Source: a virus. From it: a stretch of 28,323 nt of DNA. Position 1 is the stretch's first letter, and the number at the start of each line of letters is the position of its first letter. The stretch spans positions 1 through 28,323 of IMG/VR virus record IMGVR_UViG_3300009164_000275; one strand, given 5' to 3'. Shown piece by piece: positions 7,101 to 28,316 of the stretch. The notes under the pieces are model-generated. The model was given only the letters and a program-made list of their open reading frames with translations. It did no database searches and was not told where the DNA came from. The position numbers and the translations under genes are program-made.

Positions 7101-10100
7101 CTAGTGCTAGCTTCTATACCATCAACGCTTACTGTTATGTTAGTAGGAGTGAAAGTAGTAGTGAAAGCATACTGCGATCCTGTAGCTAAGAAATTCTCAA
7201 CTGTCCTATCAAATGAGTAGACAGCTCCAGCATTGTAGCTCTTTCCGTTAATAGTGATAGTCTGAGTAGATGCGCTTGCTAGTATCTGAGCACCGTCTGT
7301 AGAAGTAGATATCACCTGGCCAAAACTGTTATTGCTGCTCGGATTGCTCATGTCTCCTACGTAGACATAGTAACTGCTGTATTCTACTGTGACTGTAGCA
7401 CCAGAAGCCGGAGGAGTAGTCATCACTACTGCTGTGCTGCCGCCGTTAACAGTATAGTCCAAATAAGGTACCATCATGATGCCATTGACTGATACCTTCA
7501 TGTCCAGTGGTGTAGCACCCGCATATACTACAGGGAAATCGAAAGAAGTATTAGTAGCATCACCGGCATAATTATAGGTAGTTGTATCGGTTTCTTTTAA
7601 CTTGTAAGCTCTGATGATGCCTGTGCCTGGTGCACTGGCATACAACCATTTGCCATCACGGCTTGCCGCAACGCTCTGTCCTAGCTGGCTAGAGCTTGCT
7701 AAAGAAGTATGGTACAATATCTGACTATATGTTGCTGTACCGTTATCTAGTGCAAGGACATATATCGCACCTTTATTGTTTGTAGTGGGCGCACCTACGA
7801 AGAGCATGTTATCATCGTTGATGCTCATGCTATCCCCAAACGACCCTACATGAGAATCGCCAGGCGTAACAGATTCGCTCTCGCTCCAGATGTTGAAATC
7901 ATCAACACTATAGATGTGTACTGTTCCGTTGCCTTCGCCAGTAGAGCAAGCTGCAGTACGTTGATCATTGCCAATGACGATCGATTTTCCTAGATCATCG
8001 TTTGCAGTCACGTTAGCAGGACTCAGAGACTCCGCTAGTGTCCAAGGCTGGCGATTGTTTAATACTTGCCATTTTCCTTCCGAATCGTCGATATAAACCT
8101 TGTCGTCTGTTCTCCATCCACGATATGGTTGATCCTTAGCGAAATCAACCCTGCTAGGATATCTAACGCTGCCCATCTTGTATATCAGTGCGCGGATAGC
8201 ACCGGCAACAACTACCATGTCTTTGTTGCGTATCTTCACACGGAATCTTAGATTGCTTACAGCGGTGATCCTATAGATCCCGCTCATATCTACTGTAGTA
8301 AGATCACCTGCTGGACTCTGTACGCTGACCTTAGCATTCTTGATGATGATCTTATCTTTCTGGACAAATCCATGCGGTCTAGCAGTAGTAAACTCTAGCT
8401 CTTCGGCATTAGGTTTAGCTACGGACGTAGCATACAGGCCAAAATCGTTATTTGCTCTATAGATGTTCCAATCGTTATCGATGTCCGATCCTACCCAGAT
8501 GCGAGATCCTTCTCCCATTAGAGTGACCAGCGGGCTTAGATTCTCTATCTTATTCACATCAAATGCAGTTGCAGCCACTTCATTGAGCAGCACAGGTCCT
8601 GTATTTGGGATTACCTTCTTATCGTCTGAAATTCTAGCAAACACATCCTTATCAAAGCTAGAAGGAACATAATCCAGGTCTTGTACCTTAAAGGTATTCC
8701 AACGAGTATCTCTAGCATCATTCTTATTCAATAGTTCTAAGATGATCTGACCGTTGTTCTGCTTAGCAGTTGCTAGCGAAAATTCAAGCACACTATTGTT
8801 CTCAGTGTTTCCATACTCTCCTGCTCTGATAGCCCATTCCTCAGATATGGTTATATCATTCTCAGTGTATGGAAGTTTAGCACGGAGGAACTTATTGATT
8901 ACAGATTTAGTTCCTTTCTCTTTGATCATGCCGAGATAAAACTTATGCTGGCTCACTACATCCAACCCTATATCAGTGAAGTACTGACGTTCCTGGAATC
9001 CGGTAGAATGCCTAGCTTGTATGTCTGCAGATACGTTCACATCCTGAGTATCCACGTCGTAGAACGCTTCGAACTGGCTAGCATTGAACATCGGACTAGG
9101 AATCAGCTTCTTATCTAAGCTGTGATTCTTCACTTCGTACCAATCGTTCTGATTGAAATTAGTCGTTCCGCTTAGATACTTGCTAGCTGTAAAGTATTTG
9201 TTCTTGTGCTTTACTATATCGCCTTTATAATAATCGGTCTGTGAGACCCACGAATCTACGGGCTTGTGATTGACTAAGAATCCCGGTGCATAGATGCTAC
9301 CGTTCCAATCAGAAGTCTTACGACCGATGATCTTCAGACGCTGTTGTCTGTTGCCCAATACAGATTCATATATCACGTCATTGAACACTGTGATGTTGTC
9401 CATGATCAGACTGTGCTCGTATTGCACGGTCTCTACATCTAGTAGATGTATTCCTTTAGTCTGGTCACGCAGCGTCAATTCAAATGATGTGCCATCACGA
9501 TATACTCTATAATCCTTAGAAGTAAGAATCCTTCCGTCGCTATCTAACAATCTAACTTCGTTATAGCTGTTAGTCAGATCATCTACGACTGATACTCTGT
9601 TATCAAATTTCATCGCAGGACCAGCCGGAGTAAGGCCTATCACTGTATTGTTTTCCCAACCCTGCTGAGCAAAGAACAGGAACTCTTTTACTGCTAGCGA
9701 GAAATCTTGTGTGGTAGTGTTATCTACCATCACCTTATCAAACAAGAATCCAACAGCAGTCAGGTATCTGCCATAGCTTATCAAGAAGTCTGCAACCTGT
9801 TGTTTGCTTGTGAACACCGTCCCATAAGGAACAGCAAGCAATCTATTATCGCCTTTTCTATAGATAGTAGCAGTGCTGTTACCGACAGTAACAGAATAAC
9901 TGTCACTACTGACGATGCTAGGTATTATAGTGAAGTAAGGACGATATGTATCGTAACCTCTGACAGTATATCCGCCTACAGTCTTAGAGACAATGACTGC
10001 AGAATAACTCATCCTTCCGGTAGGAGCACTCTTAGATATGACGATATCATAGTTGTCTTCTGGCACTAGAACGCTCTGATTAGTGCTCTGTGGGCTGCTC

Positions 10101-13100
10101 TGTTCTGCCAACACCTTGATGTATTGCTTATCAGTAAAGCCGGCCATCTTATATGCTAGCTGCAACTTGACATCTTCTATCAATTCTACTAGATTGGTAG
10201 TAACATCTAATCCGATAGAAGTGAGCCTATCGCGTACCCATACGTTGGTGCCAGGGATAACATCTGTGCTTCCGGTAACGTCGCTGGTTAATTTCCTGTT
10301 GTTATTCTTGATGTTCAACACTTGATTATCAGGACCGAGCAGATAATCTCTGATGTTGAATGTGAACGCACAGAATTCTGCAGGTCTAGCAAGTGCATAG
10401 GCTTTCATCACAGCAAACGGATACTCACTGCTCTTCCTCCAAGCAGTCTCCACTGGACCCCAATCACCGAATCTCCATTTCTTTCCTGCTGTTAGCACGT
10501 TGTATTCTTTAACCACACACTGTGCAGGCGGAACAAGATTACCAAACTGATCGACAGGAATTATCTGTGACAGGCCAGGCCTTAGATATAGTTCATCTGC
10601 AACAGGAGTGACATAAGTGCCATCACCTAACGTGTCTTCATAGTATACACCATTCTCAAGATCATCCCACATGACCGTGTTACCGCTGGTGTAGGGCGCG
10701 AAACCATATTTCTGATCCCAATAACCTGGCTTCTCAGTATAACCTGCCATCTCCCAAGGAGCTATATGCGGACGATCAGTTCCATAGAAGTAATTGTAGA
10801 TAGCTCTCCAGTTGCCTGGCAGCAGTTCACCAAACAACTGATCAGTGCCTTCAGCATAGTTAAAACTAAACTCGCTATCATCAGTCTTAGTATTATTAGA
10901 GAATAGATCGACATTATTAACACCGACCCATTCCATGAAGTTAGGACTAAGCAACTGTGTCCATTCGTCGAACGAATAACCTGTGTTCCTAAACACCGAA
11001 GGTTGTACGGAATTATGATCAGGTAGAGAACCTAACCAATCTATCTTGATGTTGTTGTAGATCCTTTTCTCTAATTCTAAGATGACATCATCGCGATAAT
11101 CGCCGAACGCAGCGATCAGGCTTCCGTCGTGACCTTGAATTACATCACGAGGTTCAATATAGCTATCATCTGTAAACAGAACGGGATTGAATTTAGGATA
11201 GATTCCCAGCTTGCTTGGTGTAGCAGGTATCATGCAACCCAAGGTGCTCTCATATTCGTAGATATCGATGACATCGTCAGTCTCTAGATCGAAACTGTCT
11301 AATATGTTGATAACCCTTCCTGATATGCTATAATCGACATTAAGCAACATCTGTGTCACTACATCGCCGCGAGTGTGATATATCAATATAGCACGATAGC
11401 TAGCATTATCAGCTGTGAAATCCGCATTAAATCCGTATGAGTTGATAGCATTGTAAGATCTATCATATACGTCAAACACGCTGTAAGATGTCTTATCTAG
11501 ATTATTTCCGTAAGGAACCATATCGGTATAATAGAATGGCAGGTTAGATCCTGCACCATTGGTTACTTCTAATAGTATAGAATCTACCATAGCCCTAGGA
11601 TTAGTTGTGTCTTTGAATACACGGCTGGTCAGTACATCTAGGAATTTCTCTTTGAACCTAGCGTATTCCCTTCTGTTATAGTCTATGCTGTGTATTATGT
11701 CAGTAGATGGGTTATTAATCATCAACTGTGCGAAATGCACAGGTGCTGAATGTTGCAGTATGCTCCCCGCCGCCTTCGCATAATCTATATCTCTGAGATT
11801 GTTTGATCCAATCGAATCTCCTCGGAACAACAGACTATTCTCGGTTATCTCTAATAGATGATTCCTGATCTGACCTAGAGTAACAGTCTGGAAAGTCTCA
11901 TTGAAGCTGTTCTTTTCTAGATTCTTAGGAATAGTATAAAGCTGACGTAGATCAGATATGCCGTATATCTTGACGACTATCTTATCATTTACTGCTAAAT
12001 CTTTATCAAAACGAATTATGGTACGTTTATTAACAGTGTCAGTCAGCACCTTGAAATCGGTCCTGATCTTCCCGTTAACGTATACAAATACATTCTTCTC
12101 TAGCCTGCTGTATCTAAACAGTAGATCTAACTTAAAATCGTTCTTCATGTTTAGAGTTGCAGTCAGTGATTTATAGATATACTGCTTGCTAGGATCTTCG
12201 ATCTTAGTCCAAGGATTCTTCTCTTCGATGACGCCAGCTGTTGTTATTAGTTTCCTAGGGTTACCTACGTTAACAGACAAGATCTGATCGACGTTATTGC
12301 TGCTGTATGTGAAGGAATCGGTGTCAAAGTCGTTAGTAAGAAGGATATCTCCGATATTACCGATAGTCCTATAGCTTAGAGCGAATCCCAGTTCTGCATC
12401 GACTGTTGTTGAATTAGTATTTCTCTTGTATGAGAATAGCTTAGATCCAGTAAAATTGCTGCTATAATAAACAGAACCATCAGACAAACTCTTACCATCT
12501 TTGAATACATCAAATAGAGGTTCTTGGTTAACGTATTTCTTCTGCTGCAGGACTTTCCATTTTGCCTCTGAAGCATTCCAACGGTACCAGATTCCCTGTT
12601 TGTTCACACCACTCATCACAACGATGCTTTCGCCGTCTTGTGCAACGTGTAGCGGAGTAAGATGTACTTGGAAATCTCCTAAGCCGGTAGTGTCGATCTT
12701 CTCAGATCGATAGATAGTGGATCTGATGACAGGATCGGTTTCTTCAGCAAATATGACTGTTACATTAGTATTGAGCTGTACACCGTCTATATACGCATCT
12801 GGTTCGCCTTCGACCAAACTAAAAGCATCATTAATAACTATCTTGTCTGCTGGATCACCCACATCCATGATATCCATAGCATCGACAAATCCGTAGTAAG
12901 ATTCTGCGCCGTTGTACAGATATAGATCAGGAAGGAATTCTATGATAGGCCGCTTTGCCCTCTTATCATCCTCAAATGGATAGCTCTGATCCGGAGTGTT
13001 TATGCTAGCGACATAATTCAATAGATCCTTATGGAACCAACGATTGCCACGGCTCCAAGGATTGCCGTCGCCACTAGCTCTAGATATAGTGAAATATTCC

Positions 13101-14740
13101 TTGTTGACTGGGCTTCCCAGTGTACCGTCATAATTGATAGCATCAAACTCTTCACCTGAAGCATCGTAGCCGCTACCTAACAATAGATTAGTAGGTTCAG
13201 GCGTTACTTGCAAATTCCAATCTATTAGTTTAATAGATGTTCCCACACCTTCTACGACGTATTCCTTCCTCTTATAACTTGCCGGTTCTACCACATTCAT
13301 GAATCGAACTTTGAGACCGTTAGTGAATCTAATCCCGTTGGGACTGATATAAGATTTCTTTCCCAGTATGTCGGATATCTTTAGGATGCCCACATCTTCC
13401 GGTTCGATCAGATGTATAACTCCAAAACCATAATATGGAGATTGATAATAGAGCGTGTCTAGATTAGCTGTGATCACAGGCATCAACCTGATAGTCATCG
13501 CAGAATCTTTATAGACGTACCTGCTACCGTACTTGACACCTTCCTTGACGAAGATCTTGTTGTTGATGGGCCAATCTTCGACATGTGCAAGGCGCATGAT
13601 CCCTGCACTATCAACAGTGAGCTGCCATATTCCTTTCCTCAATTCTTGAGGAATAGCATCTCCTCTGTCAAAATTGTGTGCATCAAACCCGTTCTCGTAA
13701 TCAAACAGAGGTCCCGGATTGCCAGCTATCCCATCCACAGGATCAAAGTTGCTGGCATACACCCAGTTGTCATCGCTAGTATCAGTGAATATGACACGCT
13801 TGGTCAGATACCCGGATCTAATTCCATCGAACGTGTTATTCTCTAGGAATAATGCAAGTGGAAAGTTCTGCACTTGATTGAAAGGGACGTTTAGAACAAA
13901 GTCTACGTCTGTCAACCTAGGCATGTTGATGAATTCGTCCTGTGCATTACGCAGAGGAACATTGAATGTCACAGGCCCTGCGTCTTCACCATTGTTGACG
14001 ACACCTAAGATCTCTCTCTTGCTAATGTTGTGTTGATATTCTACATAATCTGTAATGTTATCTAGATCACCAGTCTCAGTCTGTACATAGAAAGGATAGT
14101 TAGGTTGATTAATGTCAAATGTATATGATCCGCCCCTTACTAGAGTAATAGTAGGATTAGTATCTGCTCCGTACCCATCGATCAGATGTCCTGCATCACC
14201 GATCACTTCTTCTGTGAGACCGTCTAAAGTGACGTTTCCGTTAGTCTTTACATAGAATGTCTTCTCGAGTTCAGCATCTCCTGCATACACATCGAGTATT
14301 TCTGGACCGTTTGGTACCCAGTAGTATTGATTGTAATTGATCAGCTTCTCGAGATCGACAAACCCTTGATAATTGTAGTAAGTCTGACGAAGCATGCGAT
14401 CATGATTGTCGGTGATACCTCCCGCGCTGCTTATCTTATTAAGAAGGTCCAGATAGCTGTATGAATTATCGATCTTATATTCTCTATCAACACCGTCTAT
14501 CCTTCTTCTAACTATCAGAGAAGGTTCGAGTTGATAGTATTGGCTAAAGCTATCGCCTTCTCTGACGTAGGGGTCTCCTGATTTATAGGTAGGATTTCCT
14601 TCGGCTCGGCCCACATAAGAACTCAGCCTGGTCATCACAGGTTCTTGGATCAATTGATCCATAGTAGCATTCAGGAATCTCTTGTTAGTCTCAGTCTGAA
14701 ATACCTGAGGTAATAGATCTAGCGTCCGACGTGCGACCAT
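1148..14740 (-). CDS. Giant 4530-aa baseplate/tail structural protein in the gp7 position
   Basis: One uninterrupted frame of 13.6 kb, starting 1 base after the gp6 stop; no strong ribosome site is close, so translational coupling is likely. It occupies the place of T4 gp7 (1032 aa) and is more than four times longer. The N-terminus (residues 1-130: TNKRFLNATMDQLIQEP, YVGR, PTYKSGDPYVREGDS, QYYQLEPS) resembles large wedge or tail proteins I recall from marine T4-like phages. Conserved-looking blocks follow at about 1300-1360 (YGTDRPHIAPWEMAGYTEKP) and about 3460-3500 (EDYIQEIKPYHTKIRKY). Between about 2245 and 2880 there are FG-GAP-like repeats. CBM5/12-like modules lie near 1824-1874, 3640, 3685 and 4003. 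Glycine-rich strand pairs (GGTGYT, GEGFTSPP, GTGAK) lie at 3550-3600, and repeats of the GDGST...V(Y/D)R(N/D)G type from about 3960 onward. No signal peptide, membrane segment or protease motif was seen. A wedge role is inferred from position; the modules suggest sugar binding or adhesion. Confidence 0.85.
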   Translation of the reverse strand: MVARRTLDLLPQVFQTETNKRFLNATMDQLIQEPVMTRLSSYVGRAEGNPTYKSGDPYVREGDSFSQYYQLEPSLIVRRRIDGVDREYKIDNSYSYLDLLNKISSAGGITDNHDRMLRQTYYNYQGFVDLEKLINYNQYYWVPNGPEILDVYAGDAELEKTFYVKTNGNVTLDGLTEEVIGDAGHLIDGYGADTNPTITLVRGGSYTFDINQPNYPFYVQTETGDLDNITDYVEYQHNISKREILGVVNNGEDAGPVTFNVPLRNAQDEFINMPRLTDVDFVLNVPFNQVQNFPLALFLENNTFDGIRSGYLTKRVIFTDTSDDNWVYASNFDPVDGIAGNPGPLFDYENGFDAHNFDRGDAIPQELRKGIWQLTVDSAGIMRLAHVEDWPINNKIFVKEGVKYGSRYVYKDSAMTIRLMPVITANLDTLYYQSPYYGFGVIHLIEPEDVGILKISDILGKKSYISPNGIRFTNGLKVRFMNVVEPASYKRKEYVVEGVGTSIKLIDWNLQVTPEPTNLLLGSGYDASGEEFDAINYDGTLGSPVNKEYFTISRASGDGNPWSRGNRWFHKDLLNYVASINTPDQSYPFEDDKRAKRPIIEFLPDLYLYNGAESYYGFVDAMDIMDVGDPADKIVINDAFSLVEGEPDAYIDGVQLNTNVTVIFAEETDPVIRSTIYRSEKIDTTGLGDFQVHLTPLHVAQDGESIVVMSGVNKQGIWYRWNASEAKWKVLQQKKYVNQEPLFDVFKDGKSLSDGSVYYSSNFTGSKLFSYKRNTNSTTVDAELGFALSYRTIGNIGDILLTNDFDTDSFTYSSNNVDQILSVNVGNPRKLITTAGVIEEKNPWTKIEDPSKQYIYKSLTATLNMKNDFKLDLLFRYSRLEKNVFVYVNGKIRTDFKVLTDTVNKRTIIRFDKDLAVNDKIVVKIYGISDLRQLYTIPKNLEKNSFNETFQTVTLGQIRNHLLEITENSLLFRGDSIGSNNLRDIDYAKAAGSILQHSAPVHFAQLMINNPSTDIIHSIDYNRREYARFKEKFLDVLTSRVFKDTTNPRAMVDSILLEVTNGAGSNLPFYYTDMVPYGNNLDKTSYSVFDVYDRSYNAINSYGFNADFTADNASYRAILIYHTRGDVVTQMLLNVDYSISGRVINILDSFDLETDDVIDIYEYESTLGCMIPATPSKLGIYPKFNPVLFTDDSYIEPRDVIQGHDGSLIAAFGDYRDDVILELEKRIYNNIKIDWLGSLPDHNSVQPSVFRNTGYSFDEWTQLLSPNFMEWVGVNNVDLFSNNTKTDDSEFSFNYAEGTDQLFGELLPGNWRAIYNYFYGTDRPHIAPWEMAGYTEKPGYWDQKYGFAPYTSGNTVMWDDLENGVYYEDTLGDGTYVTPVADELYLRPGLSQIIPVDQFGNLVPPAQCVVKEYNVLTAGKKWRFGDWGPVETAWRKSSEYPFAVMKAYALARPAEFCAFTFNIRDYLLGPDNQVLNIKNNNRKLTSDVTGSTDVIPGTNVWVRDRLTSIGLDVTTNLVELIEDVKLQLAYKMAGFTDKQYIKVLAEQSSPQSTNQSVLVPEDNYDIVISKSAPTGRMSYSAVIVSKTVGGYTVRGYDTYRPYFTIIPSIVSSDSYSVTVGNSTATIYRKGDNRLLAVPYGTVFTSKQQVADFLISYGRYLTAVGFLFDKVMVDNTTTQDFSLAVKEFLFFAQQGWENNTVIGLTPAGPAMKFDNRVSVVDDLTNSYNEVRLLDSDGRILTSKDYRVYRDGTSFELTLRDQTKGIHLLDVETVQYEHSLIMDNITVFNDVIYESVLGNRQQRLKIIGRKTSDWNGSIYAPGFLVNHKPVDSWVSQTDYYKGDIVKHKNKYFTASKYLSGTTNFNQNDWYEVKNHSLDKKLIPSPMFNASQFEAFYDVDTQDVNVSADIQARHSTGFQERQYFTDIGLDVVSQHKFYLGMIKEKGTKSVINKFLRAKLPYTENDITISEEWAIRAGEYGNTENNSVLEFSLATAKQNNGQIILELLNKNDARDTRWNTFKVQDLDYVPSSFDKDVFARISDDKKVIPNTGPVLLNEVAATAFDVNKIENLSPLVTLMGEGSRIWVGSDIDNDWNIYRANNDFGLYATSVAKPNAEELEFTTARPHGFVQKDKIIIKNAKVSVQSPAGDLTTVDMSGIYRITAVSNLRFRVKIRNKDMVVVAGAIRALIYKMGSVRYPSRVDFAKDQPYRGWRTDDKVYIDDSEGKWQVLNNRQPWTLAESLSPANVTANDDLGKSIVIGNDQRTAACSTGEGNGTVHIYSVDDFNIWSESESVTPGDSHVGSFGDSMSINDDNMLFVGAPTTNNKGAIYVLALDNGTATYSQILYHTSLASSSQLGQSVAASRDGKWLYASAPGTGIIRAYKLKETDTTTYNYAGDATNTSFDFPVVYAGATPLDMKVSVNGIMMVPYLDYTVNGGSTAVVMTTPPASGATVTVEYSSYYVYVGDMSNPSSNNSFGQVISTSTDGAQILASASTQTITINGKSYNAGAVYSFDRTVENFLATGSQYAFTTTFTPTNITVSVDGIEASTSSYSVVGNVVSFVSAPAADAVISIETNTFINTARIVPPDSDVIESLRYGTDIELCPNNCSIYVGTPGYMNDSGDRGGVYRHVNVARLYGNIRGTVVDPAVTAGHKISINNFKITFSGNNLASVIGDINDANIPGVSASNDGNRLLIQTDSQLTFNRLSVSNLSGTGLIDLGLSLFPQVQVIESVFQEDGLAFGEHIAISPDAMKLMVGTTKATSTLYMTFDSVITTVSGVAKVRETTTYDGISTQFYDRIPRSGAAYLYEYQTSAAESIDDIGQFAYACKYVSNNMSTNDSFGRNLAISDNWVMIASPKANYAGNSKGVFYIYRNANADDCWEVLREQAVDSDSRKIARAFIYNQNTNLLVSELPVVDSVYGKHYPDAIKDVKYITNYDPAVYNKVPNGNNFTFDRRSAWGKEHVGQIWWDINSVKYVEWQQGTLINKANTKDLLYPSSSIDIYEWTESNLTPSQYNATYGKIGLQPLYTVNEVYTEVGSNDVVTSQVGTKYYYWTKLNQNISNDQYHKLTSLAQALGDPRSLGMPYISVLAPNAVALYNCSDLVSTDNVLKIEYNKSIERAPVHTEWSIFDDGSRLGFSQNIYDKIVDSVAESDDQGRTVPDINLKEKQKYGVSIRPRQSVLTDAKEARYYFWIFANDFFKTYPVRIIRDIGNFQVEDPYPDVTEYDEAVDNDVELGYLDSIQYLGKTILVRTDGIADGGWTLRILSQIVRNNATVYEWNVAKSQKYDLKKYWEYSDWYSESFSSDKIPTYQVDFAFELADLELRNNDTIKIKNSTSGGFQILRVKGTTLELIAQENATINLLPSFYDINSAGLGLESTSFETLGFSRDNSIEVRMLFDALVDLLLTSSGVFVDEFRKLGKALFEQAISIINSQFKEANWIFKTSFISIEHKIRKLEQIPVYVRQPEGTVEDYIQEIKPYHTKIRKYLSIYPGSDSADMFSTDFDLQPYLAPDNNKYRSPQLENYYDTDKFSQYPYKAWNDNHTFELYYIDVVDGGTGYTNETKIKIISDSGTGAKARVKVKAGGVINIVIVDARGEGFTSPPEIIVEGAGTGAKLKARLRNTKVRSLKTLIKFDRYTYENVIQDWQQSHSYSVNDLFVYDNLPYRVTSAFTSGTTIDFTNTVSYKIYRWQPYTRYSKYDIVVTDWANRVAYEVVDDFTTSDRVTIYSSELTSYTGLVLDNAADRTWSHYVTSSGLPGRDLRQLMTGLEYPGVKVTGLRFTEEPGYDTNVFDAASFDNFVVNEEGVPVVNDTAIDTTYYSYFTDANLGLRSEDIITDGSGFVDSYSSHAPEELLPGQIFDSLNIQVTSAPGTPATGTKFGPDVALLATSAGNSTRFPFATDLIGDIEKLIVWTKFEGFKNEGINFTVDWVNYEIVFPTTFLNPSDIIYITSLGSTGENIMEDIQYRGDGSTTVYSVSNMRNSISQQVYVKIDGVEVTDYQKTWDPALVKAWTAFTSYNIGDLISYQGNVYRAAQDTASGSEFATTVIEGTTIVTVLEEYDYDQVILFDTAPADNSFIQIHSFNVEDTRKAYSSIKQSVHYVGGINPDPLDIGTNVDYPDGYLFELPELMEYAHPWASNLSVRINNSELSPANNTYYTGDGSTNGYYLPLVGSTTAATISDSDIIVVVDNELQKINIDYTVYRDGSSDPLVVFNTSPAQGAAIILGDSSVADYRIVDPSTVLIKSVLSISNGAATELQIGDIVTITQFSNHDMYDMRTQVFKGTLVSTVLTGGFDTFAFDAAGFDTSGTSVISNPSYTLSRPVTKPQFLEVYRNGIILDPVFDYRLASSTVVELGSLLSVQSTDLVVIRHYSEDVRRPSMRFRVFQDMRGEKSYLGISRRNSSRLTSDLNIGDDVIYVEDASVLNEPGLDSNQPGVVFINSERIVYWTRDVVNNTLGQIWRSTAGTGGKAHKKGSIAEDGSAGMAIPNGDNLWYDLVSGGQVGPDGSTLVVKTNGTVLQDATTVQANYLRSISR
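6101..8008 (-). repeat. FG-GAP-like (beta-propeller) repeat region within giant protein
   Basis: About residues 2245-2880 of the giant protein. At least five units share the pattern (F/L/Y)G-x3-(S/A)-x-(S/N/D)-x6-(V/A)-(G/S)-(A/T)-(P/S) followed by a strand with a V-Y or I-Y pair: SFGDSMSINDDNMLFVGAP, LGQSVAASRDGKWLYASAP, SFGQVISTSTDGAQILASAS, FGEHIAISPDAMKLMVGT and FGRNLAISDNWVMIASP. A less clear unit (YGTDIELCPNNCSIYVGTP) and an N-terminal one (LGKSIVIGNDQRTAACST) would make seven. This is the spacing of integrin-type FG-GAP blades. Loops carry inserted domains, for example a SVNGIMMVPYLDYTV strand pair near residue 2413. The fold is inferred from the motif; no alignment was run. Confidence 0.6.
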
Positions 14741-18633: not shown

Positions 18634-21549
18634 TCAGCAGCTAGGTCCACCTGCTGCTGCTGGCTGATTGTTAGCAGGAGCACCAGGAGTACCAGCACCG
18701 CCTGCACCGGGAGTATTAGCATTATTAGCTGTTACAGGATTGTCTGGCGTGCCATTAGTACTACTTCCCGAAGTCTTCACACCGTTATTATCGCTAGACC
18801 ATGATTCCTTGCTAGAACTGTATTCTGTTCCGCCAGCACTGCCTGTAGAATCGGAGTCATATCTCTGAGCATAACCGTTCTGATCGACAGTATCAGGTGT
18901 CGCATTTACACGTTTTCCATAATCATCTTCGATATATTTCTGAGACGCTTCTGTCTGACCTATCTGGGTATCGTAACTGGAAGAATCTTGTATCCTCTGA
19001 TCTTGTGCTGCTTTGTCATATTCGATGTCACGATCGGTATTAGTATTCGGGCTCTCATAGTAAGTGTAAGGTTGCCCTGTCTGTTCATCAAATCCTTCTT
19101 TAGCAACTGAATTCTGACTTGAATCGCGGTCAACTACAGACCCACGATCAGCAGGAGTGTTACCATCTCCCATGATCTGATCACTAGCTGAGGATGCGGA
19201 ACGATAATCGTCTCTCTGAGCTATGTATGTGTTTTCTCTATTCTGTGCGTCTGTCAGTGCTTGAGTTGCGGATGCATTCCTGGCATCTGCATCACTGACA
19301 GATTTCTCAAGAGCGGCAATCTTTTCTTTGTCCTGCATCTCTTCTGGCAGCTTCTTCTCTTCCTCAAGCATTGCCTGACTCTTTTCTTTGATAGCATTGT
19401 TGTTGTCGATCTGTTCTTGAGCCTTAGCTTGATCGACTTTTGCTTCTTCGACCTTCTGATCTGCGGTCTTCGCTCTATCTTCCTCAGCTTTCCTTGCTTC
19501 TTCCCTTGCCTTAGCTTCGTCTGCTGGCTTATGGAATCCTTTATCGTCCGTGTTGTCATATGGTTTATCTAGTTTTGCATCCGATTGGGGCGGATTCTGT
19601 TTCTGTGTCTGCGGAGGCGTTGCACCTCTAACATAAACACCGTTAGGATTCTTATCGTTGGCGATAACACGATAAGCATTAGCGTTGTTGCTCATGCTCT
19701 TTGCATCGTTAGCATAGATGTTTCTGTACTGAGATCCCATCGCAGGAGGAACGTTCTGTTCCTGCACCGTGATGTATTTTCCTCTAGCATCTTCTCCCTG
19801 GCCTAGATAGATAGCAGCATGGTTACCCGATGGCATGTTAGGATAGTATCCGTTAGGCATGGTCGCGATTGCTGCACCCGGTGCAGGAGGATTATCAAAC
19901 AGATTGTTGTTACTTGCTGGTCTCCAAGTGTTCGTAGTACCGCAATCTGAATTGTGATAAACCAACATGACGCACTGTCCGTTGCCTACGACTGTCCTAT
20001 TAGCGACTAGATCTGGATATCCTTTGAATCCATTGTCTCCGCCGCTTGGGTTTAGAGTTACATTAGATCCGCCGCTAGTATTACCACCTGAAGGAATATT
20101 GCTAGAGCTGTTTGATGAGCTACCATAATTGCTTCCACCGCCGCCAGCAGCACCGCCGCCACCTGGTGAACTGCCTGACGATCCATTATATCCTGAATTC
20201 TTACCATAGCCGCCTGAGATTCCGCCGCTGCTAGCTGCACCGCCGCCTTTGCTGCTGCCTGAGTTGCCGCCTTTCTTATGACCGCTCCATGGTTCCTTGG
20301 TAGGCATGCCCTGTGGTGCTTGTGCTGGACTTGCATCTTTAGCCTTTGTAGGCTTGCTGCAGTTTAGATTAATGCAGGCTGCTCCTAAGTCTAAGTGTAC
20401 ACCGCCACTGACCTGTATGCATTTGTCTCCTGTGAGATATGTGTTAGATCCTTTAAGATGCAGGTTCTTCTTGCCCGACAGCTTAGCATCAGCATCACTG
20501 CTGAGATCTAGTCCTCCCTTACCCGATACAGCAACCTTTGCTTCGCTGTTTATATCAACACCCGTCTTACCATGGATCTTGACGCCAGCATCGCTCTCTA
20601 TCTGCATAGGACCTTTGCTCTTGAGATTAAACTGTGCATCAGCATACATGTTTATGTTGCCGCCTTGATCTAGCTCTACCCAAGCTGTACCAGCTGCGTT
20701 AGTGATGTAGATGAACCCGCCGGTGTCGTGCATGGTCAGCTGATGACCAGTAGCACTACGCAATCTTATCAGCTGACTAGACTGCGTTTCAGCATCACCA
20801 TCATCCATGACGAAGGTATGACCGCCTTTCCTTCCAGTATCGCTGACCTTAGGATCAGTTGCTGCAGCAGGATTTATCAGCTGCCCTGGCGTGCTGAATC
20901 CAAACACTGCACTAGGGCTTTCTCGGAATGCGCTGGATGTGATAGGCCCACGTTCCTTATCTTGCCCGAGTCCTTGCTTCTGGAATTGCTTCTTGATCTC
21001 GTCGTGCGGAGTGGCTTGTCTCTCATAGAATTCTGCGATATTGCTGGGATTCGAATCAGATTTATCGTCATTATATTCGATAGCAGGATCGCCATTGCTC
21101 TGACTGTTCGTTCCGATAGCAGGAACCATGTGCATGTTAGGCCAGTCCGGTATGCAAGCAAACCAATAACCTTTGAAGGGATCGCCGTTGATGAAGGTAC
21201 AGATGACACTAATACCCCTGTCGGGAGGTGTCATCCAGAATCCGTAGCTATGTGGATTTGTAGCAAAGTTCTGACCGTCAGAACGCCTGTCGGGACCGTC
21301 GGGATTCTTAGCCGGTGGAGTCACCCCAAAGAACGGACTAGCATAAGCTACCGTGCGCCAAGCACCGGGATCCTCCGGATCGCCACCTAGCTCTGCGATC
21401 CAAACCTGCACTCGACCGCTACGCATAGGATCTACATTGTTCTTAACTATACCAATGAAAGGTCCGGCATTGACCCTAACACCTTTAGCACTCTCATGAC
21501 TGGTATGGGCTGGTGCTTTGTTATTCTCCGATGAGTCATATATTGGCAT
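18634..21549 (-). CDS. 5: gp5-like baseplate hub/spike with C-terminal amidase-like domain
   Basis: 971 residues; T4 gp5 has 575. T4 gp5 forms the cell-puncturing spike as OB fold, lysozyme, then beta-helix needle. Here residues about 29-140 form the OB-like domain (GPFIGIVKNNVDPMRSGRV, then GFWMTPPDRGISVICTFING and GYWFACIPD). Residues about 240-397 form the needle, with short V-x-(I/L)-x-(G/S) strands (GKTGVDINSEAKVAVSGKGG). No lysozyme sits between them. A Gly/Ser-rich linker (about 400-500) leads to a domain at 507-640 with Cys526 in VGNGQCVMLVYH and His577 in GNHAAIYLG, a Cys-His pair resembling the BPSL0067/NlpC-like amidase group. An Ala/Glu/Lys-rich probable coiled coil (about 667-787) and a disordered tail ending GGPSC follow. 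An AGGATAA ribosome site overlaps the stop of the upstream hub gene, 6 bases away. The gp5 call is secure; peptidoglycan cleavage is inferred from the Cys-His motif. Confidence 0.88.
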   Translation of the reverse strand: MPIYDSSENNKAPAHTSHESAKGVRVNAGPFIGIVKNNVDPMRSGRVQVWIAELGGDPEDPGAWRTVAYASPFFGVTPPAKNPDGPDRRSDGQNFATNPHSYGFWMTPPDRGISVICTFINGDPFKGYWFACIPDWPNMHMVPAIGTNSQSNGDPAIEYNDDKSDSNPSNIAEFYERQATPHDEIKKQFQKQGLGQDKERGPITSSAFRESPSAVFGFSTPGQLINPAAATDPKVSDTGRKGGHTFVMDDGDAETQSSQLIRLRSATGHQLTMHDTGGFIYITNAAGTAWVELDQGGNINMYADAQFNLKSKGPMQIESDAGVKIHGKTGVDINSEAKVAVSGKGGLDLSSDADAKLSGKKNLHLKGSNTYLTGDKCIQVSGGVHLDLGAACINLNCSKPTKAKDASPAQAPQGMPTKEPWSGHKKGGNSGSSKGGGAASSGGISGGYGKNSGYNGSSGSSPGGGGAAGGGGSNYGSSSNSSSNIPSGGNTSGGSNVTLNPSGGDNGFKGYPDLVANRTVVGNGQCVMLVYHNSDCGTTNTWRPASNNNLFDNPPAPGAAIATMPNGYYPNMPSGNHAAIYLGQGEDARGKYITVQEQNVPPAMGSQYRNIYANDAKSMSNNANAYRVIANDKNPNGVYVRGATPPQTQKQNPPQSDAKLDKPYDNTDDKGFHKPADEAKAREEARKAEEDRAKTADQKVEEAKVDQAKAQEQIDNNNAIKEKSQAMLEEEKKLPEEMQDKEKIAALEKSVSDADARNASATQALTDAQNRENTYIAQRDDYRSASSASDQIMGDGNTPADRGSVVDRDSSQNSVAKEGFDEQTGQPYTYYESPNTNTDRDIEYDKAAQDQRIQDSSSYDTQIGQTEASQKYIEDDYGKRVNATPDTVDQNGYAQRYDSDSTGSAGGTEYSSSKESWSSDNNGVKTSGSSTNGTPDNPVTANNANTPGAGGAGTPGAPANNQPAAAGGPSC

Positions 21550-21555
21550 GATCTA

Positions 21556-24000
21556 TTATCCTGGATCTACATCATTGTTAGGCTTGTCTTCTATTACTGT
21601 TGTGGTCGGAGGTAGAGAGTATCTACCAAATTCCGACAGATCTTGTTGGCTTATTGCGGGTGGAGGTAGAGAGTATCTACCAAAATTCTTCATATCTTCT
21701 TCGGTTATTACTTTACCATTATCAGTCTGTTTGTTAGTGAATACATCCGTAATCTCTTCGTTGGACCGATTATTAGTTTCTGGATTACTGACATTAGCGG
21801 TAATCGTGGGCGATTCGGCTTTTTTAACAGGTGTTGCAGCAGTATCGCTACTAGACGGCGCCGGGTTGCTCTGATACTTAACACGGAAGTTGTCCAGCTT
21901 CTGAATAAACTTACCCCCTCGGAACTCACTAGAGACTGCTATGATCTTATATAAGCCGTTAAACATCTCGGTGGTAACACTCTGCAATTGAAACAATCCG
22001 GTATCGTCATCGTAATCGTTCATCGGAGTCCTAAATTCAAAATAGAAGTAAGCCTCATAATGATCAAAATTCAAGCTACCGTGATCGTATATCAGCTGAT
22101 TCTTGTTGTTGCTAACACCGTAGAATATGCTGTCTTGCTGTATCAGATCGGGATCTCCGACGATAGTGAGATCTAACTGTATGTTCTCAGCGACCTGATC
22201 GAACTGCTGCTTAAACAGTTCTTCGACTGCCAGCGTCTTCTTGTTCAGCGTCCTAGGTCCGGTATTATTAGCATCTGCCAATCCCCAGACTACCTTGGTC
22301 CTCTTGGGAACGATTCCTACTTGTTCCGGAGTTGGAGTAGTAGAACCACCAGCTTCGGGATCTGCCTTCTTATCAGCTTCGAGCAATGCTGCTTCGGCAC
22401 CGTTCCTCAGCGTAAACAGCGCAGTCTTGATGTCAAACCTAACATCGATCACATCCTTGTTCTGTCCAGTGAATATCCATTTGTAACGCTTGCTAGCACC
22501 CGGGGGTGCTTTCTGACCGAATCCATCAGCATCACTACCGTGGATGATATAAGGCATGACCACATAGGTAACTTCCCTTGCCCACATGTTGGTCAAAGGA
22601 TCGTATTCTCCAAACTTTACTTCTGGAGTGATCTTGTATGTGCTAAGAGGCTTTCCCTTATCGCCGCCAGGCTTATACTGTTCGCTCATATAAGTGCTGA
22701 TTTGTAGCACGCTGCCTATTAGATCGGTAATCCTAGCACCCGATTGAACTCGGAATGCCTGTTTGCTAGGATCCAGCTTGATCGTCTTACCGACTAGCTC
22801 GTTAGGGTTCTTAGGATCGCTCATCCTAAAACCTTGCCTGGACCATTCAGCAGGATCGACGACCTTTGCATCTCCTAATCCATCTTCGAATCTAAAATTA
22901 TACTTGGTAGGATAAGTGATCTGCTTCTTGTTCTGTAGATAAGTCTCACCATCATTCAATGCAATCTTGACACCTTTGACAACGGTATTGGATCCCCCTT
23001 GCGACGTAGTCGATGGGCTACCGTCACCAGTAGTTCCTGCAGGACCATTGAATATCTCATCTACTGTGCCGCCGACGATCTCCATATGGAATGGAATGGT
23101 ATTGTCTAGAGGAGTCATCGCAAAATGATGGCAAGGTACTGCCTTGATAGAATATACAGAACCTTTCTCAGTGATGCTGTATTCCATGTTAGTGAAGTTC
23201 ATCGGAATGAATTTCGTAGCCTTAGGTACTGTAGCTACGTTTCCAGAATCATCGTAACCCAGGAACTGTATCTTCATGAGATAGAAGTTCATAGCCCAGT
23301 CCGGTCGCCCGTGCATTTCCATAGCCTGTGCTATGAGTCTAGGTAGGAAGGTGACAGTATAAGGTTCTATCACGTCGAAGCTCATCTCGATAACGTCAGT
23401 GCTTCTATTTCTTGCGCTGATACCGACGATGCTCTTGAACTTGATATTATCGATGTAGAAGTCCACGCCGAACAGACTGCCTTTATCTGCCGACTTGCTG
23501 CCTCCGCTCTTCAGTATGAGTTGGCTCTGTGAGATGATGCCATCTTCACCCCCCGGTGCTAGCTTACCATCCGTGACCTGATTCATCACATCCTTAGGTA
23601 CAGCATAGAGGCTGATGTTGTAGGTGTAGTTAACATAAGCGTGCAGAGGATTGGGCTTCTCTTTAGGAACGTCAGCAGATTTTCCTCCACCGGTATTGCC
23701 TGCTGAACCCGATCCGGCTATTGTAGTCTTATCCGGCTCCTGACTAATCACAGCAGGAGACACTTTATCTTGTTTAGATGTTTGGTTTCCTGTATATACA
23801 CCCATTCCACCATAGCCAGGTCTCATAAAAGCAGAATCTTCAAGATATGATGTTGATTTAGATGGATTAACTGTCGAATCCACCGGAGGTAGAGAATTCT
23901 TACCTATCGTGATAGGCTTAGCACCATTCTGTGATACCGGAATCGTGCCTGCTAGTTCTGTTACACCAGTGTTGTCTATAGGCTCGGGTGGGATTGCCAT
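21556..24000 (-). CDS. Baseplate hub-type structural protein in the gp27 position
   Basis: 814 residues, about twice T4 gp27 (391), and directly upstream of the gp5-like gene, whose product gp27 would bind in the central hub. Residues 1-110 are low complexity (Gly, Ser, Pro, Thr). A core starts near 118 (PLHAYVNYTYNISLYAV) and continues with FYIDNIKFKSIVGISARNRS, IEPYTVTFLPRLI and NFYLMKIQFLGY (about 180-250). It ends near 672-710 with FNGLYKIIAVSSEFRGGKF, a GLYK-type closing element typical of phage hub proteins. The last 100 residues are again disordered. The core resembles a protein I recall as conserved in cyanophages and other marine T4-like phages between gp53 and gp5. Short motifs recur: SLPP near residue 36, FGRYSLPP near 773 and 791, and PGYGGMGV at 61-68, the last shared with the gp48-like protein. 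The ATG is 3 bases after the gp53 stop. The gp27 assignment rests on position; sequence similarity to T4 gp27 was not visible. Confidence 0.72.
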   Translation of the reverse strand: MAIPPEPIDNTGVTELAGTIPVSQNGAKPITIGKNSLPPVDSTVNPSKSTSYLEDSAFMRPGYGGMGVYTGNQTSKQDKVSPAVISQEPDKTTIAGSGSAGNTGGGKSADVPKEKPNPLHAYVNYTYNISLYAVPKDVMNQVTDGKLAPGGEDGIISQSQLILKSGGSKSADKGSLFGVDFYIDNIKFKSIVGISARNRSTDVIEMSFDVIEPYTVTFLPRLIAQAMEMHGRPDWAMNFYLMKIQFLGYDDSGNVATVPKATKFIPMNFTNMEYSITEKGSVYSIKAVPCHHFAMTPLDNTIPFHMEIVGGTVDEIFNGPAGTTGDGSPSTTSQGGSNTVVKGVKIALNDGETYLQNKKQITYPTKYNFRFEDGLGDAKVVDPAEWSRQGFRMSDPKNPNELVGKTIKLDPSKQAFRVQSGARITDLIGSVLQISTYMSEQYKPGGDKGKPLSTYKITPEVKFGEYDPLTNMWAREVTYVVMPYIIHGSDADGFGQKAPPGASKRYKWIFTGQNKDVIDVRFDIKTALFTLRNGAEAALLEADKKADPEAGGSTTPTPEQVGIVPKRTKVVWGLADANNTGPRTLNKKTLAVEELFKQQFDQVAENIQLDLTIVGDPDLIQQDSIFYGVSNNKNQLIYDHGSLNFDHYEAYFYFEFRTPMNDYDDDTGLFQLQSVTTEMFNGLYKIIAVSSEFRGGKFIQKLDNFRVKYQSNPAPSSSDTAATPVKKAESPTITANVSNPETNNRSNEEITDVFTNKQTDNGKVITEEDMKNFGRYSLPPPAISQQDLSEFGRYSLPPTTTVIEDKPNNDVDPG
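21608..21630 (+). repeat. 23-bp direct repeat, copy 1 (end of hub gene)
   Basis: A 23-base string beginning GGAGGTAGAGAGTATC is identical to the copy at 21662-21684, 54 bases (18 codons) away. Read on the minus strand in frame, both encode FGRYSLPP near the C-terminus of the gp27-position protein. A diverged relative beginning GGAGGTAGAGAATTC lies at 23885-23904 near the N-terminus, encoding GKNSLPP. Confidence 0.9.
21662..21684 (+). repeat. 23-bp direct repeat, copy 2 (end of hub gene)
   Basis: Exact second copy of the string at 21608-21630. It encodes FGRYSLPPP around residue 773 of the hub protein. Identity at the base level, including third codon positions, points to recent duplication or selection on the DNA as well as on the peptide. 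Confidence 0.9.
23797..23821 (+). repeat. 25-bp repeat shared with gp48 gene, hub-gene copy
   Basis: A 25-base string beginning TACACCCATTCCACC is identical to 25104-25128 in the gp48-like gene. On the minus strand it encodes PGYGGMGV at residues 61-68 of the hub protein. Residues on both sides (SAFMR before) also resemble the other copy (TAFLA). Confidence 0.92.
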
Positions 24001-25496: not shown

Positions 25497-26354
25497 ATGA
25501 CAATAACCAAACGCACCCCTTACCTCACAAACAAAGAACTACTTAGAGAGATACACAAGAGCAAGAACAGCTATTGCAGCTATCTAACGCCAGAAGATCA
25601 CTCATATGACATCATATTGCCCAGCTTGACCAAGATCAATCAGAAGACGACCGCAGAAGCTAAACGTGCTCGTGCTGATAGGATGGCAAAACAAGCGTGG
25701 GAGACAAGCCAACTCGCAGGCATCAAGACGAAATTAGACGATCATGCCGTCGACTGGAAGAAGATTACCAAGCAAGATGTGATATTCCGAGTGATCTGTT
25801 GGGATCACATACCACTAGCACCTGGACGCAAGAAGACGCCCAAGAGCACCCCCGATCATCATACTAAAGTGAACTTCCCTCCCTTCCAGCATTTCCGATT
25901 TGACGAGAATGACGAACTGATCTGCGTAGGCAAGAGCCATTGGGAAGGCGGTCTGCAGAACGGTCACTTCAACAAGGATCACGGAAAGATGACCAACAAC
26001 CTGGCCCGCATGTTCATGAAACTGTGCGAACGATATGGTAGCAAAGGCAACTGGCGAGGTTATACCTACAACGACGAGATGCGTAGCCAAGCACTGCTAC
26101 AGCTAAGCCAAGTAGGTCTACAGTTTGACGAGAGCAAATCCAACAATCCTTTCGCGTACTACACTGCAACTATCACCAATAGCTTTACTAGGGTATTGAA
26201 CGTCGAGAAACGCAATCAACATCTCAGAGACGATATTCTAGAGATGAACAATCTCAATCCTTCCTATACTCGACAGACTGAGAACGCTATCAAGGCAGCA
26301 GAATCTGTGCCGACCATCGTTCCCGATAACGAGCCAGGGTTTGTCAAGTCTTAA
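25497..26354 (+). CDS. 55: Late-transcription sigma factor gp55-like
   Basis: 285 residues; T4 gp55 has 185. T4 gp55 is the sigma factor that binds host RNA polymerase and recognises TATAAATA late promoters. The N-terminus (YLTNKELLREIHKSK, about residues 9-23) matches the NKELLQAI start region of T4 gp55. Residues about 186-245 match its sigma region 2 core: NWRGYTYNDEMRSQALLQL, then FDESKSNNPFAYYTATITNSF and VLNVEKRNQ; T4 has SGYTQSWKQEM and [22 protein letters not shown]. Between them lies an inserted segment of roughly 100 residues, basic at first (PLAPGRKKTPKS) and then carrying HHTKVNFPPFQHFRF and GKSHWEGG, which I recall from marine T4-like phages. The T4 C-terminal sliding-clamp motif (LDFLYE) is not evident; the end reads DNEPGFVKS. 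It is divergent from the tail operon and its stop is 1 base before the first radical SAM start. Confidence 0.88.
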   Translation: MTITKRTPYLTNKELLREIHKSKNSYCSYLTPEDHSYDIILPSLTKINQKTTAEAKRARADRMAKQAWETSQLAGIKTKLDDHAVDWKKITKQDVIFRVICWDHIPLAPGRKKTPKSTPDHHTKVNFPPFQHFRFDENDELICVGKSHWEGGLQNGHFNKDHGKMTNNLARMFMKLCERYGSKGNWRGYTYNDEMRSQALLQLSQVGLQFDESKSNNPFAYYTATITNSFTRVLNVEKRNQHLRDDILEMNNLNPSYTRQTENAIKAAESVPTIVPDNEPGFVKS

Positions 26355-26355
26355 C

Positions 26356-27357
26356 ATGCGACCAGAGCATCTAGAATTCGATCTGACTTCTAGATGCAAC
26401 GCTGCTTGTCCGCATTGTCCTAGATCTAATCCCATCTTTGCTCCTCATCTAGATACGGATGAGGAGATAACCTTGTCTGATATACAATCCTGGTTTCCCA
26501 AGGAAGTGTTGACAGATCTCAAGAAGGTCACGTTCGAAGGAACATTCAGCGACCCACTAATGTCAAATCATCTAATAGGAATCGTGCAGCATTTCTTAGA
26601 TTCATCATCAGCTAACATCAGGATCTACACTAATGCTAGTCTGAGATCAGAATCTTGGTGGCAGAGACTGGGATCTCTGTCCGACAGGATCACCGTGATC
26701 TTTGCGATAGACGGCTTGTCTGATACGCACAGCATATATCGAGTCAATACTAGCTTTAACAAGATCATATCCAATGCTAAGAGTTATATCGCTGCAGGAG
26801 GAAATGCTGCATGGAAATTCCTAGCATTCCTGCATAACGATCATCAGGTTGATCAAGCAAGAGAGATGTCTGAAGAATTGGGTTTCAAAGAATTCATATT
26901 AGAACCAGGTGCAAGATTCCAGTCTGGTGATGATTATGTAATCAACAAGAAAGGACAAACCATACAACAGACTGCGTTGCCATTGTTTTCCAAACCCATC
27001 GCAACGTCTGATCAAGCGAGTTGCAAGAGCAAGAACACAAGCTGGATCGTGATACATTGGAACGGAGATGTGCTGCCTTGTTGTTATGTTCCCTGGCAGA
27101 GCGGACTGTTCGATAACATCAAAACTGTGCAACCTCTGAGAAAATCTGCTACCGGAGATGTGGATTCTAGCTACGCACTAAGCAAGGTTGGACACGCTGA
27201 TAGGTTGTTCTGGCGCAAGATCACTAAAGGAAATTCTAACCTAAGACGGAATTCATTAGAAAATATATTAGGATTGATAGAAGATTTCTATGCGGCACTG
27301 AACGTGAGATACACACCTGCTTGTTGCAAATCTAAATGTCCTAAGAGCACGCAATGA
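26356..27357 (+). CDS. Radical SAM protein with twitch/SPASM-like C-terminus (copy A)
   Basis: 333 residues from the ATG at 26356, 1 base after the gp55 stop; a TTG 15 bases earlier would overlap gp55 and has no support. Cys14, Cys18 and Cys21 (CNAACPHC) form the CX3CX2C motif that binds the [4Fe-4S] cluster and S-adenosylmethionine. The usual GGEP strand is replaced by FEGTFSDPLM. A central core (FAIDGLSDTHSIYRVNT, YIAAGGNAAWKFLAFLHN, near residues 116-158) fits the partial TIM barrel. Cys223 to Cys242 reads CX13GX4C, the twitch/SPASM signature for an auxiliary [4Fe-4S] cluster, and Cys324/Cys328 near the end form CX3C. Such architecture is typical of enzymes that modify peptides and some other large substrates. 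The substrate here is unknown. It overlaps its paralogue by the 4-base ATGA. Enzyme class is firm; peptide modification is inference. Confidence 0.88.
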   Translation: MRPEHLEFDLTSRCNAACPHCPRSNPIFAPHLDTDEEITLSDIQSWFPKEVLTDLKKVTFEGTFSDPLMSNHLIGIVQHFLDSSSANIRIYTNASLRSESWWQRLGSLSDRITVIFAIDGLSDTHSIYRVNTSFNKIISNAKSYIAAGGNAAWKFLAFLHNDHQVDQAREMSEELGFKEFILEPGARFQSGDDYVINKKGQTIQQTALPLFSKPIATSDQASCKSKNTSWIVIHWNGDVLPCCYVPWQSGLFDNIKTVQPLRKSATGDVDSSYALSKVGHADRLFWRKITKGNSNLRRNSLENILGLIEDFYAALNVRYTPACCKSKCPKSTQ

Positions 27358-28316
27358 AGATCGAAGACATACGGCATATTGAATTTGAACTTAGCAGCAG
27401 GTGCAATGCAGCATGCCCGCAATGTCCTAGGCAGTCTGCTGAATTCCAAGCTGCATTAGATACCAAAGAAGAAATCACACTGAAGAACGTGAAGGATTGG
27501 TTGCCACAGACTGTGCTAGACAAGTTAGAAAAGATATCCTTCAAAGGCACTTTTAGTGAACCTGCCATAGCTAAGGATTGTCTAGATATAGTCCAACATC
27601 TAGCAGATAATAGCAATGCAAAGATAATGTTCCATACAAATGGTAGTCTCAGAGATAAGGATTTCTGGCAGAAACTAGCAGTTGCTATTGATCATAGAGG
27701 TAGATGTGTTTTTGCCATAGATGGATTAGAAGATACTCATGCAATCTATAGAATCAATACAAACTATCATAAGATAATAAACAATGCAGCAACTTATATT
27801 GCTGCAGGCGGAGCGGCAACTTGGCAGTTCATAGCTTTTCAACACAATCAACATCAGATAGATCAAGCAAAAGACCTTTCCAAGTCCATGGGATTCATGA
27901 ATTTCCGACTCATGGGCAGTAACAGATTCGATACAGAATTTGATCTAGTGGATACAAACAAAGGAAACAGGATAACCAAGAGTGACTTGATATCATCTCC
28001 TACCTTAGAAGATTATAATGATCGAATAAAATCAACTCGCTGCGTAGATTGTATCAGTGAGAAGACCGGTTGGATCATGATAGATTGGTCAGGTGACGTT
28101 TTTCCCTGTTGCTACAGTCAAGTATGGAAGAGTAACATGCACACACACAGCTTAGATAGCCAATATTGGTACAAACGTATACTTCGAGATCCATTAGGAA
28201 ATAATCTACATCATCGATCTCTACAGCAGATATCAGAGAAGCTGTCTGAGTTATATACTCAGCTAAATGGATCGATGATCCCAAAGATATGTGCTAAACA
28301 CTGTTCTATAATTTGA
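27354..28316 (+). CDS. Radical SAM protein with twitch/SPASM-like C-terminus (copy B)
   Basis: 320 residues; complete, ending 7 bases before the window edge. Its ATG overlaps the stop of copy A (ATGA), so the two are translationally coupled. Cys17, Cys21 and Cys24 (CNAACPQC) give the CX3CX2C cluster motif, FKGTFSEPAI stands where GGEP is expected, and FAIDGLEDTHAIYRINT with YIAAGGAATWQFIAFQHN repeats the core of copy A almost residue for residue. Cys233 to Cys252 is again CX13GX4C, preceded by an extra Cys230 (CVDC), and the tail ends CAKHCSII with Cys313 and Cys317 as CX3C. The gene looks richer in A+T than copy A and gp55, hinting at separate drift or a different origin of this copy. The pair arose by duplication; whether they act on one substrate or two, or as a heterodimer, cannot be read from the sequence. 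Confidence 0.88.
   Translation: MKIEDIRHIEFELSSRCNAACPQCPRQSAEFQAALDTKEEITLKNVKDWLPQTVLDKLEKISFKGTFSEPAIAKDCLDIVQHLADNSNAKIMFHTNGSLRDKDFWQKLAVAIDHRGRCVFAIDGLEDTHAIYRINTNYHKIINNAATYIAAGGAATWQFIAFQHNQHQIDQAKDLSKSMGFMNFRLMGSNRFDTEFDLVDTNKGNRITKSDLISSPTLEDYNDRIKSTRCVDCISEKTGWIMIDWSGDVFPCCYSQVWKSNMHTHSLDSQYWYKRILRDPLGNNLHHRSLQQISEKLSELYTQLNGSMIPKICAKHCSII

Follow-up and report, generated by a model that had tools for sequence, protein, structure and literature searches.

The gene analyzed here encodes a gp5/VgrG-type protein that carries, behind its needle, a papain-like amidase domain of the Tae2/BPSL0067 family (residues ~504-639). It lies in a 28,323-base IMG/VR virus fragment, an incomplete genome of an uncultured phage, the whole of which is referred to here as the window. 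Our explanation, which we consider roughly 80% probable, is that Tae2 amidases tethered behind the needle are delivered by the spike and open the wall for the tube. It draws on what is documented below: the domain architecture, the family and fold of the enzyme, its conserved catalytic residues and purifying selection, and the modular exchange. With its Tae2 domain, the spike represents a new variation on a known design, and not a new kind of machine. What is new are its parts, namely a Tae2 module in a phage spike and a lineage of uncultured phages in which Tae2 is paired with a domain resembling the Enc34 endolysin.

The spike ORF is intact, running from ATG to TGA. The 3' half of the gene was also found, with 100% identity, on a second, independent metagenome contig (IMGVR_UViG_3300027969_004144; L002/L021), and the ORF is therefore not an assembly artefact. 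It is part of a baseplate block on the minus strand, in which it is accompanied by genes for two wedge proteins (gp53-like and gp6-like), a large hub-like protein and a gp25-like protein. These gp53-, gp25- and gp6-like neighbours, together with the match to phrog_13211 and the VgrG and eCIS needle matches, identify the gene as a spike, and we read it as encoding the spike at the centre of a contractile tail, with an OB fold and a needle. The PF04717 match to the OB fold, at 20.6 bits, is just under the cut-off of 23.8 and weak alone; phage homologues pass it. The coordinates of all features are collected in Table 1.

Table 1. Features of the spike gene and its upstream neighbour, in window coordinates.
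Feature	Position	Strand	Evidence
Hub-like protein, separate gene upstream of the spike	21556-24000		
gp5/VgrG-type spike, 971 aa, with post-needle Tae2 amidase	18634..21549	-	phrog_13211, E=2e-33, residues 31-388
OB fold, residues ~31-145	21115..21459	-	PF04717, 20.6 bits; alignment with relatives that pass
Beta-helix needle, residues ~255-400	20350..20787	-	VgrG 8gra, E=0.002; eCIS spike All3320 7b5h, E=0.03; relatives aligned
Motif MPTKEPWSGH directly after needle, residues 415-424	20278..20307	-	T417, E419, P420 and H424 invariant in 5 distant spikes
Gly/Ser linker, residues 426-500, 64% G+S	20050..20274	-	Interval occupied by muramidase-fold domain in nearest relatives
Tae2/BPSL0067 amidase domain, residues 504-639	19633..20040	-	Profile, PDB and predicted-fold matches
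Cys526, predicted nucleophile	19972..19974	-	Invariant in all aligned spike and cellular homologues
His577, predicted catalytic base	19819..19821	-	Invariant in all aligned spike and cellular homologues
Glu597, predicted third residue, followed by invariant Gln598	19759..19761	-	D or E in all relatives
Charged segment, residues 676-790, 43% charged, probably helical/coiled-coil	19180..19524	-	Composition; weak match to scaffold-protein family phrog_24130
Low-complexity tail, residues 791-971, ending in lone Cys971	18637..19179	-	Composition and sequence

Other genes of the window were also recorded. Two tandem radical SAM/SPASM-like genes on the plus strand (26341-27357 and 27354-28316), 41% identical to each other, lie beside the baseplate block and a gene for a late sigma factor. 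An unusually large virion structural protein of 4,530 aa (phrog_10938, E=4e-299) is encoded on the minus strand (1148-14740); it contains a CBM5/12-like stretch and matches FG-GAP repeats. Regarding the size of the phage, one spike of the same lineage (L184) lies on a contig of 338,435 bases, which suggests that the spike lineage, and probably the window phage, belongs to the jumbo phages.

The window spike shares the OB fold and the triple beta-helix with T4 gp5. In T4, however, the lysozyme lies between these two elements, whereas the window spike has no enzyme there and carries one after the needle, as the first-pass annotation had described. The stretch from OB fold to needle (residues ~146-254, ~109 residues) matched no enzyme in Pfam, PHROGs, NCBIfam or PDB, and the same enzyme-free arrangement is kept in relatives. 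A concealed enzyme was considered for this interval and rejected, as so short a stretch leaves no room for one and yielded no match. The extension beyond the needle amounts to ~560 residues, in agreement with the more than 500 that had been proposed; the Gly/Ser linker and the final Cys likewise proved to be present as described. Directly after the needle, the pattern P[TS]xEP occurs in 28 of 80 other spikes, versus 0.4 in shuffles. In its fuller form, PT[H/K]EP[F/W/Y]xxH, the motif is common to spikes with very different C-terminal modules or with none, and it is possibly a needle-tip or cap-binding element.

The assignment of the amidase domain rests on sequence profiles, structures and a predicted fold. 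The NCBIfam model for BPSL0067 (NF033857; cut-off 27 bits) scored 66.1 bits with the domain alone (E=3e-18) and 61.1 with the whole protein. PDB entry 6WIN was recovered with the domain sequence alone (E=1e-11) and with a profile built from 14 viral homologues (E=6e-25). In addition, an AlphaFold2 model of the domain (pLDDT 77.5, pTM 0.76) matched 6WIN in Foldseek (E=1e-5) and in VIA (Z 12.8, rmsd 2.4 A over 105 residues, 38% identity); this was the only strong structural match, the next best having a Z of 5.6. In Pfam, the domain reaches only 20.0 bits with CHAP, under the threshold of 26, whereas NCBIfam and PDB resolve its identity. Tae2 proteins are papain-like enzymes that stand near NlpC/P60 and CHAP (PMC10318531); NlpC/P60 or CHAP proper was nevertheless rejected, as 6WIN beats every CHAP fold by 7 Z units. 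The proposal of an amidase-like domain of the BPSL0067 kind after the beta-helix is thus borne out. Residues 500-645 were examined for a peptidase fold and for the residue pair of the active site, and both the fold and the proposed Cys526/His577 pair were found there.

Cys526 and His577 are invariant across plasmid, chromosomal and viral homologues, and C526, H577, D/E597 and Q598 are kept in 16 diverse spikes, the divergent ones of which are otherwise very different. Glu597, the probable third catalytic residue as judged from the alignment, stands for the Asp of nearly all close homologues; Glu is also found here in one divergent spike clade. In most comparable pairs, dN/dS in the amidase domain is roughly 0.04-0.25, and both the catalytic residues and the domain as a whole are under purifying selection. 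The substitution at Glu597 could be taken as a sign of a catalytically dead domain that binds peptidoglycan or another partner. We regard this as very improbable, since the Cys, His and D/E-Q do not vary even among spikes that have diverged strongly, whereas loss of these residues would be expected in a dead domain. Activity of the domain in the spike would follow from its family, and the bond cut would, by the same analogy, be mDAP-D-Ala, the specificity drawn for Tae2 from PMC3695027.

A tblastn search of the 144-aa domain against 50,697 phage records gave no match at E<=0.01, so that no isolated phage carries a close Tae2 copy at tblastn sensitivity. Two scans of viral contigs, in turn, placed Tae2 spikes in a lineage of uncultured phages, and eight near relatives are 45-51% identical to the window spike over residues 1-410. 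Most spikes of this lineage combine Tae2 with an extra domain of ~155 residues that bears an invariant QNNPGNL motif. For this extra domain, the predicted fold resembles that of the catalytic domain of the Enc34 endolysin (7q47; VIA Z 11.1 over 121 residues, the next match 4.9; Foldseek E=6e-4), a domain with a lysozyme-related fold (PMC8943055). The window spike has Tae2 without any counterpart of this domain, while seven spikes (L149, L152-155, L169 and L185) have the extra domain without Tae2. As each occurs without the other, the two are exchangeable parts, which is consistent with both wall enzymes serving entry; and as several spikes of the lineage lack Tae2, the latter is not indispensable. 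It was also considered that the muramidase-fold domain might have moved to some other ORF of the window, but a profile search found none there. The description of the amidase as "replacing" the gp5 lysozyme applies only loosely: the nearest relatives pair Tae2 with a muramidase-fold domain that also lies after the needle.

Cellular and viral forms of the amidase are alike in sequence, fold, catalytic Cys-His pair and acid-Gln motif. They differ in their setting: all 20 cellular homologues are separate proteins (117-335 aa), whereas in the window the domain follows a phage needle within one fused protein. The best scores of the cellular scan against the window domain were mainly from Methylosinus and Rhodoblastus; plasmids of Methylocella and Methylosinus carry further copies. 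In a tree of Tae2 domains, the window sequence groups with L022 and L023 (100/100); this tree is short and poorly rooted, and cannot settle the donor, the host or the number of Tae2 acquisitions. On another virus contig (L038:5706-8141), a Tae2 domain stands at the N-terminus of an 812-aa protein, a second and different use by a phage.

The window spike was also compared with better known spikes. Using the whole protein, tblastn retrieved 60 phage records, all of them jumbo phages except for short records, with alignments limited to the OB fold and needle. Spikes of the RaK2/121Q/CBB type (phrog_13211; CBB_240) have the same OB fold, needle, post-needle enzymes and gene order around gp53 and gp25. 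They differ in lacking Tae2 and the terminal Cys, and in having other tails; 121Q, RaK2 and Vibrio phage 2.275.O carry a GH24 lysozyme and a weak M23-like domain after the needle. Other occupants were found elsewhere: XacN1 and RAS14 have an SLT_3 lysozyme-like domain; the spike of Atu_ph07 (L004:3905-6502) ends in a trypsin-like protease (Trypsin_2, E=6e-17) after a lysozyme-like stretch; and that of Sinorhizobium phage Phosso (L006:3914-7048) ends in a weaker HtrA-like match, again after a lysozyme-like stretch. The Phosso spike also has a poly-Gly/Ser linker of more than 200 residues. In 48 further IMG/VR relatives, the post-needle matches were phage lysozyme (4), SLT (4), S74 chaperone (4), GH19, VanY/M15 and transglycosylase. 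The domain scan found no post-needle module in the spikes of PA5oct and SCTP-2. The slot after the needle thus behaves as an exchangeable payload site for lysozyme, transglycosylase, peptidase, amidase and trypsin-like protease. An OB fold with a C-terminal lysozyme was described for CBB in 2017, when the difference from T4 gp5 was pointed out, and CBB_240, with this arrangement, is a confirmed virion protein (PMC5259590). Jumbo phages are also known to have NlpC/P60 proteins, which are sometimes tail-associated (PMC7824862). Therefore, the contrast with T4 that the first-pass annotation drew from the position of the enzyme is right, but overstated for this group, in which an enzyme after the needle is common and not new.

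Functionally, the evolved VgrG is the nearest parallel: in it, a C-terminal wall hydrolase is delivered into the periplasm (PMC9927483). In V. cholerae VgrG3, for example, the peptidoglycan hydrolase that follows the needle is a C-terminal muramidase. However, an evolved VgrG is a hub-spike fusion that works in a T6SS with an immunity protein, whereas the phage hub-like protein is encoded by a separate gene, and the window spike begins just before its OB fold (residue ~31), with no gp27-like hub fused in front. Moreover, neither T6SS genes nor a recognised immunity gene were seen in the 28-kb window, and the spike gene sits amid phage baseplate genes. With the hub-like protein in a gene of its own and no T6SS gene present, the window spike is not a VgrG; and the T6SS delivery and immunity gene that go with Tae2 as an effector system are not found for it.

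Based on these comparisons, we propose how the spike might work; its trimeric state, the activity of the enzyme, the bond cut, the location at the tip, and the delivery and its timing are inferred. Three chains would form an OB-fold collar and a beta-helical needle, beyond which each chain would run on through a flexible Gly/Ser tether into the papain-like Tae2 amidase and end in a long tail of low complexity. Upon tail contraction, the needle would pass through the outer membrane, and up to three tethered amidases would precede the tube into the periplasm, where they would cut peptide cross-links of the peptidoglycan, at the mDAP-D-Ala bond if the family analogy holds, and thereby open the mesh for the tube. 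In this, the spike would work like the evolved VgrG and like the spikes of related jumbo phages that have a lysozyme after the needle, the slot being filled here by another enzyme. A mostly disordered extension of this length on a piercing tip is mechanically odd, and this counts against the proposal. The long Gly/Ser linker and the low-complexity tail would permit release of the C-terminal part by cleavage, so that the amidase would be a free periplasmic enzyme or act in lysis or superinfection instead of being tethered, and T4 gp5 itself undergoes processing. Some relatives also carry the self-cleaving S74 chaperone domain (PMC7824862). Nevertheless, domain scans found no protease or self-cleavage domain in the window spike, and linker length and sequence vary freely among relatives, with no conserved cleavage motif seen, so that we consider release unlikely.

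The end of the tail is conserved in a different manner from the amidase. Cys is the last residue in all 29 non-redundant tails of the lineage (L022, L024, L026, L030-L034 and L143-L187; redundancy cut at 90% identity across the final 250 residues, 28% identical on average), including that of the window (Cys971, 18637-18639), and the last 250 residues are otherwise free of Cys. Both TGT and TGC codons are in use at this position. The terminal Cys is absent from spikes outside the lineage and present also in spikes without Tae2, and it is therefore part of the tail and not of the amidase. That the same end and a low-complexity tail are kept where Tae2 is missing would also suit an extension that is mainly structural or in contact with the host, as long flexible whiskers with a reactive Cys end, in which the amidase is an optional accessory. 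This seems somewhat less likely still than release, given that the catalytic residues and the whole amidase domain are under purifying selection and that post-needle peptidoglycan hydrolases arise repeatedly and independently in related phages. As for the Cys itself, the data favour none of a disulfide, a metal site and a modification site over the others. Tentatively, and with more doubt than belief, the lone C-terminal Cys could represent a functional chemistry of the tip (an inter-chain or spike-to-partner disulfide, a metal or modification site). It would then mark out an unrecognised class of phage spikes, whose post-needle enzymes are tethered or released by a whisker with a thiol end.

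Altogether, specialist attention is best directed to the Tae2 payload and to the conserved thiol end. Natural variants with the amidase only, the muramidase-fold domain only, both or neither make it directly testable where a wall enzyme sits relative to the needle during penetration. Overall, one enzyme family appears to have been recruited to the tips of two related piercing machines, as an effector of the bacterial T6SS and in the spike of uncultured jumbo-type phages.
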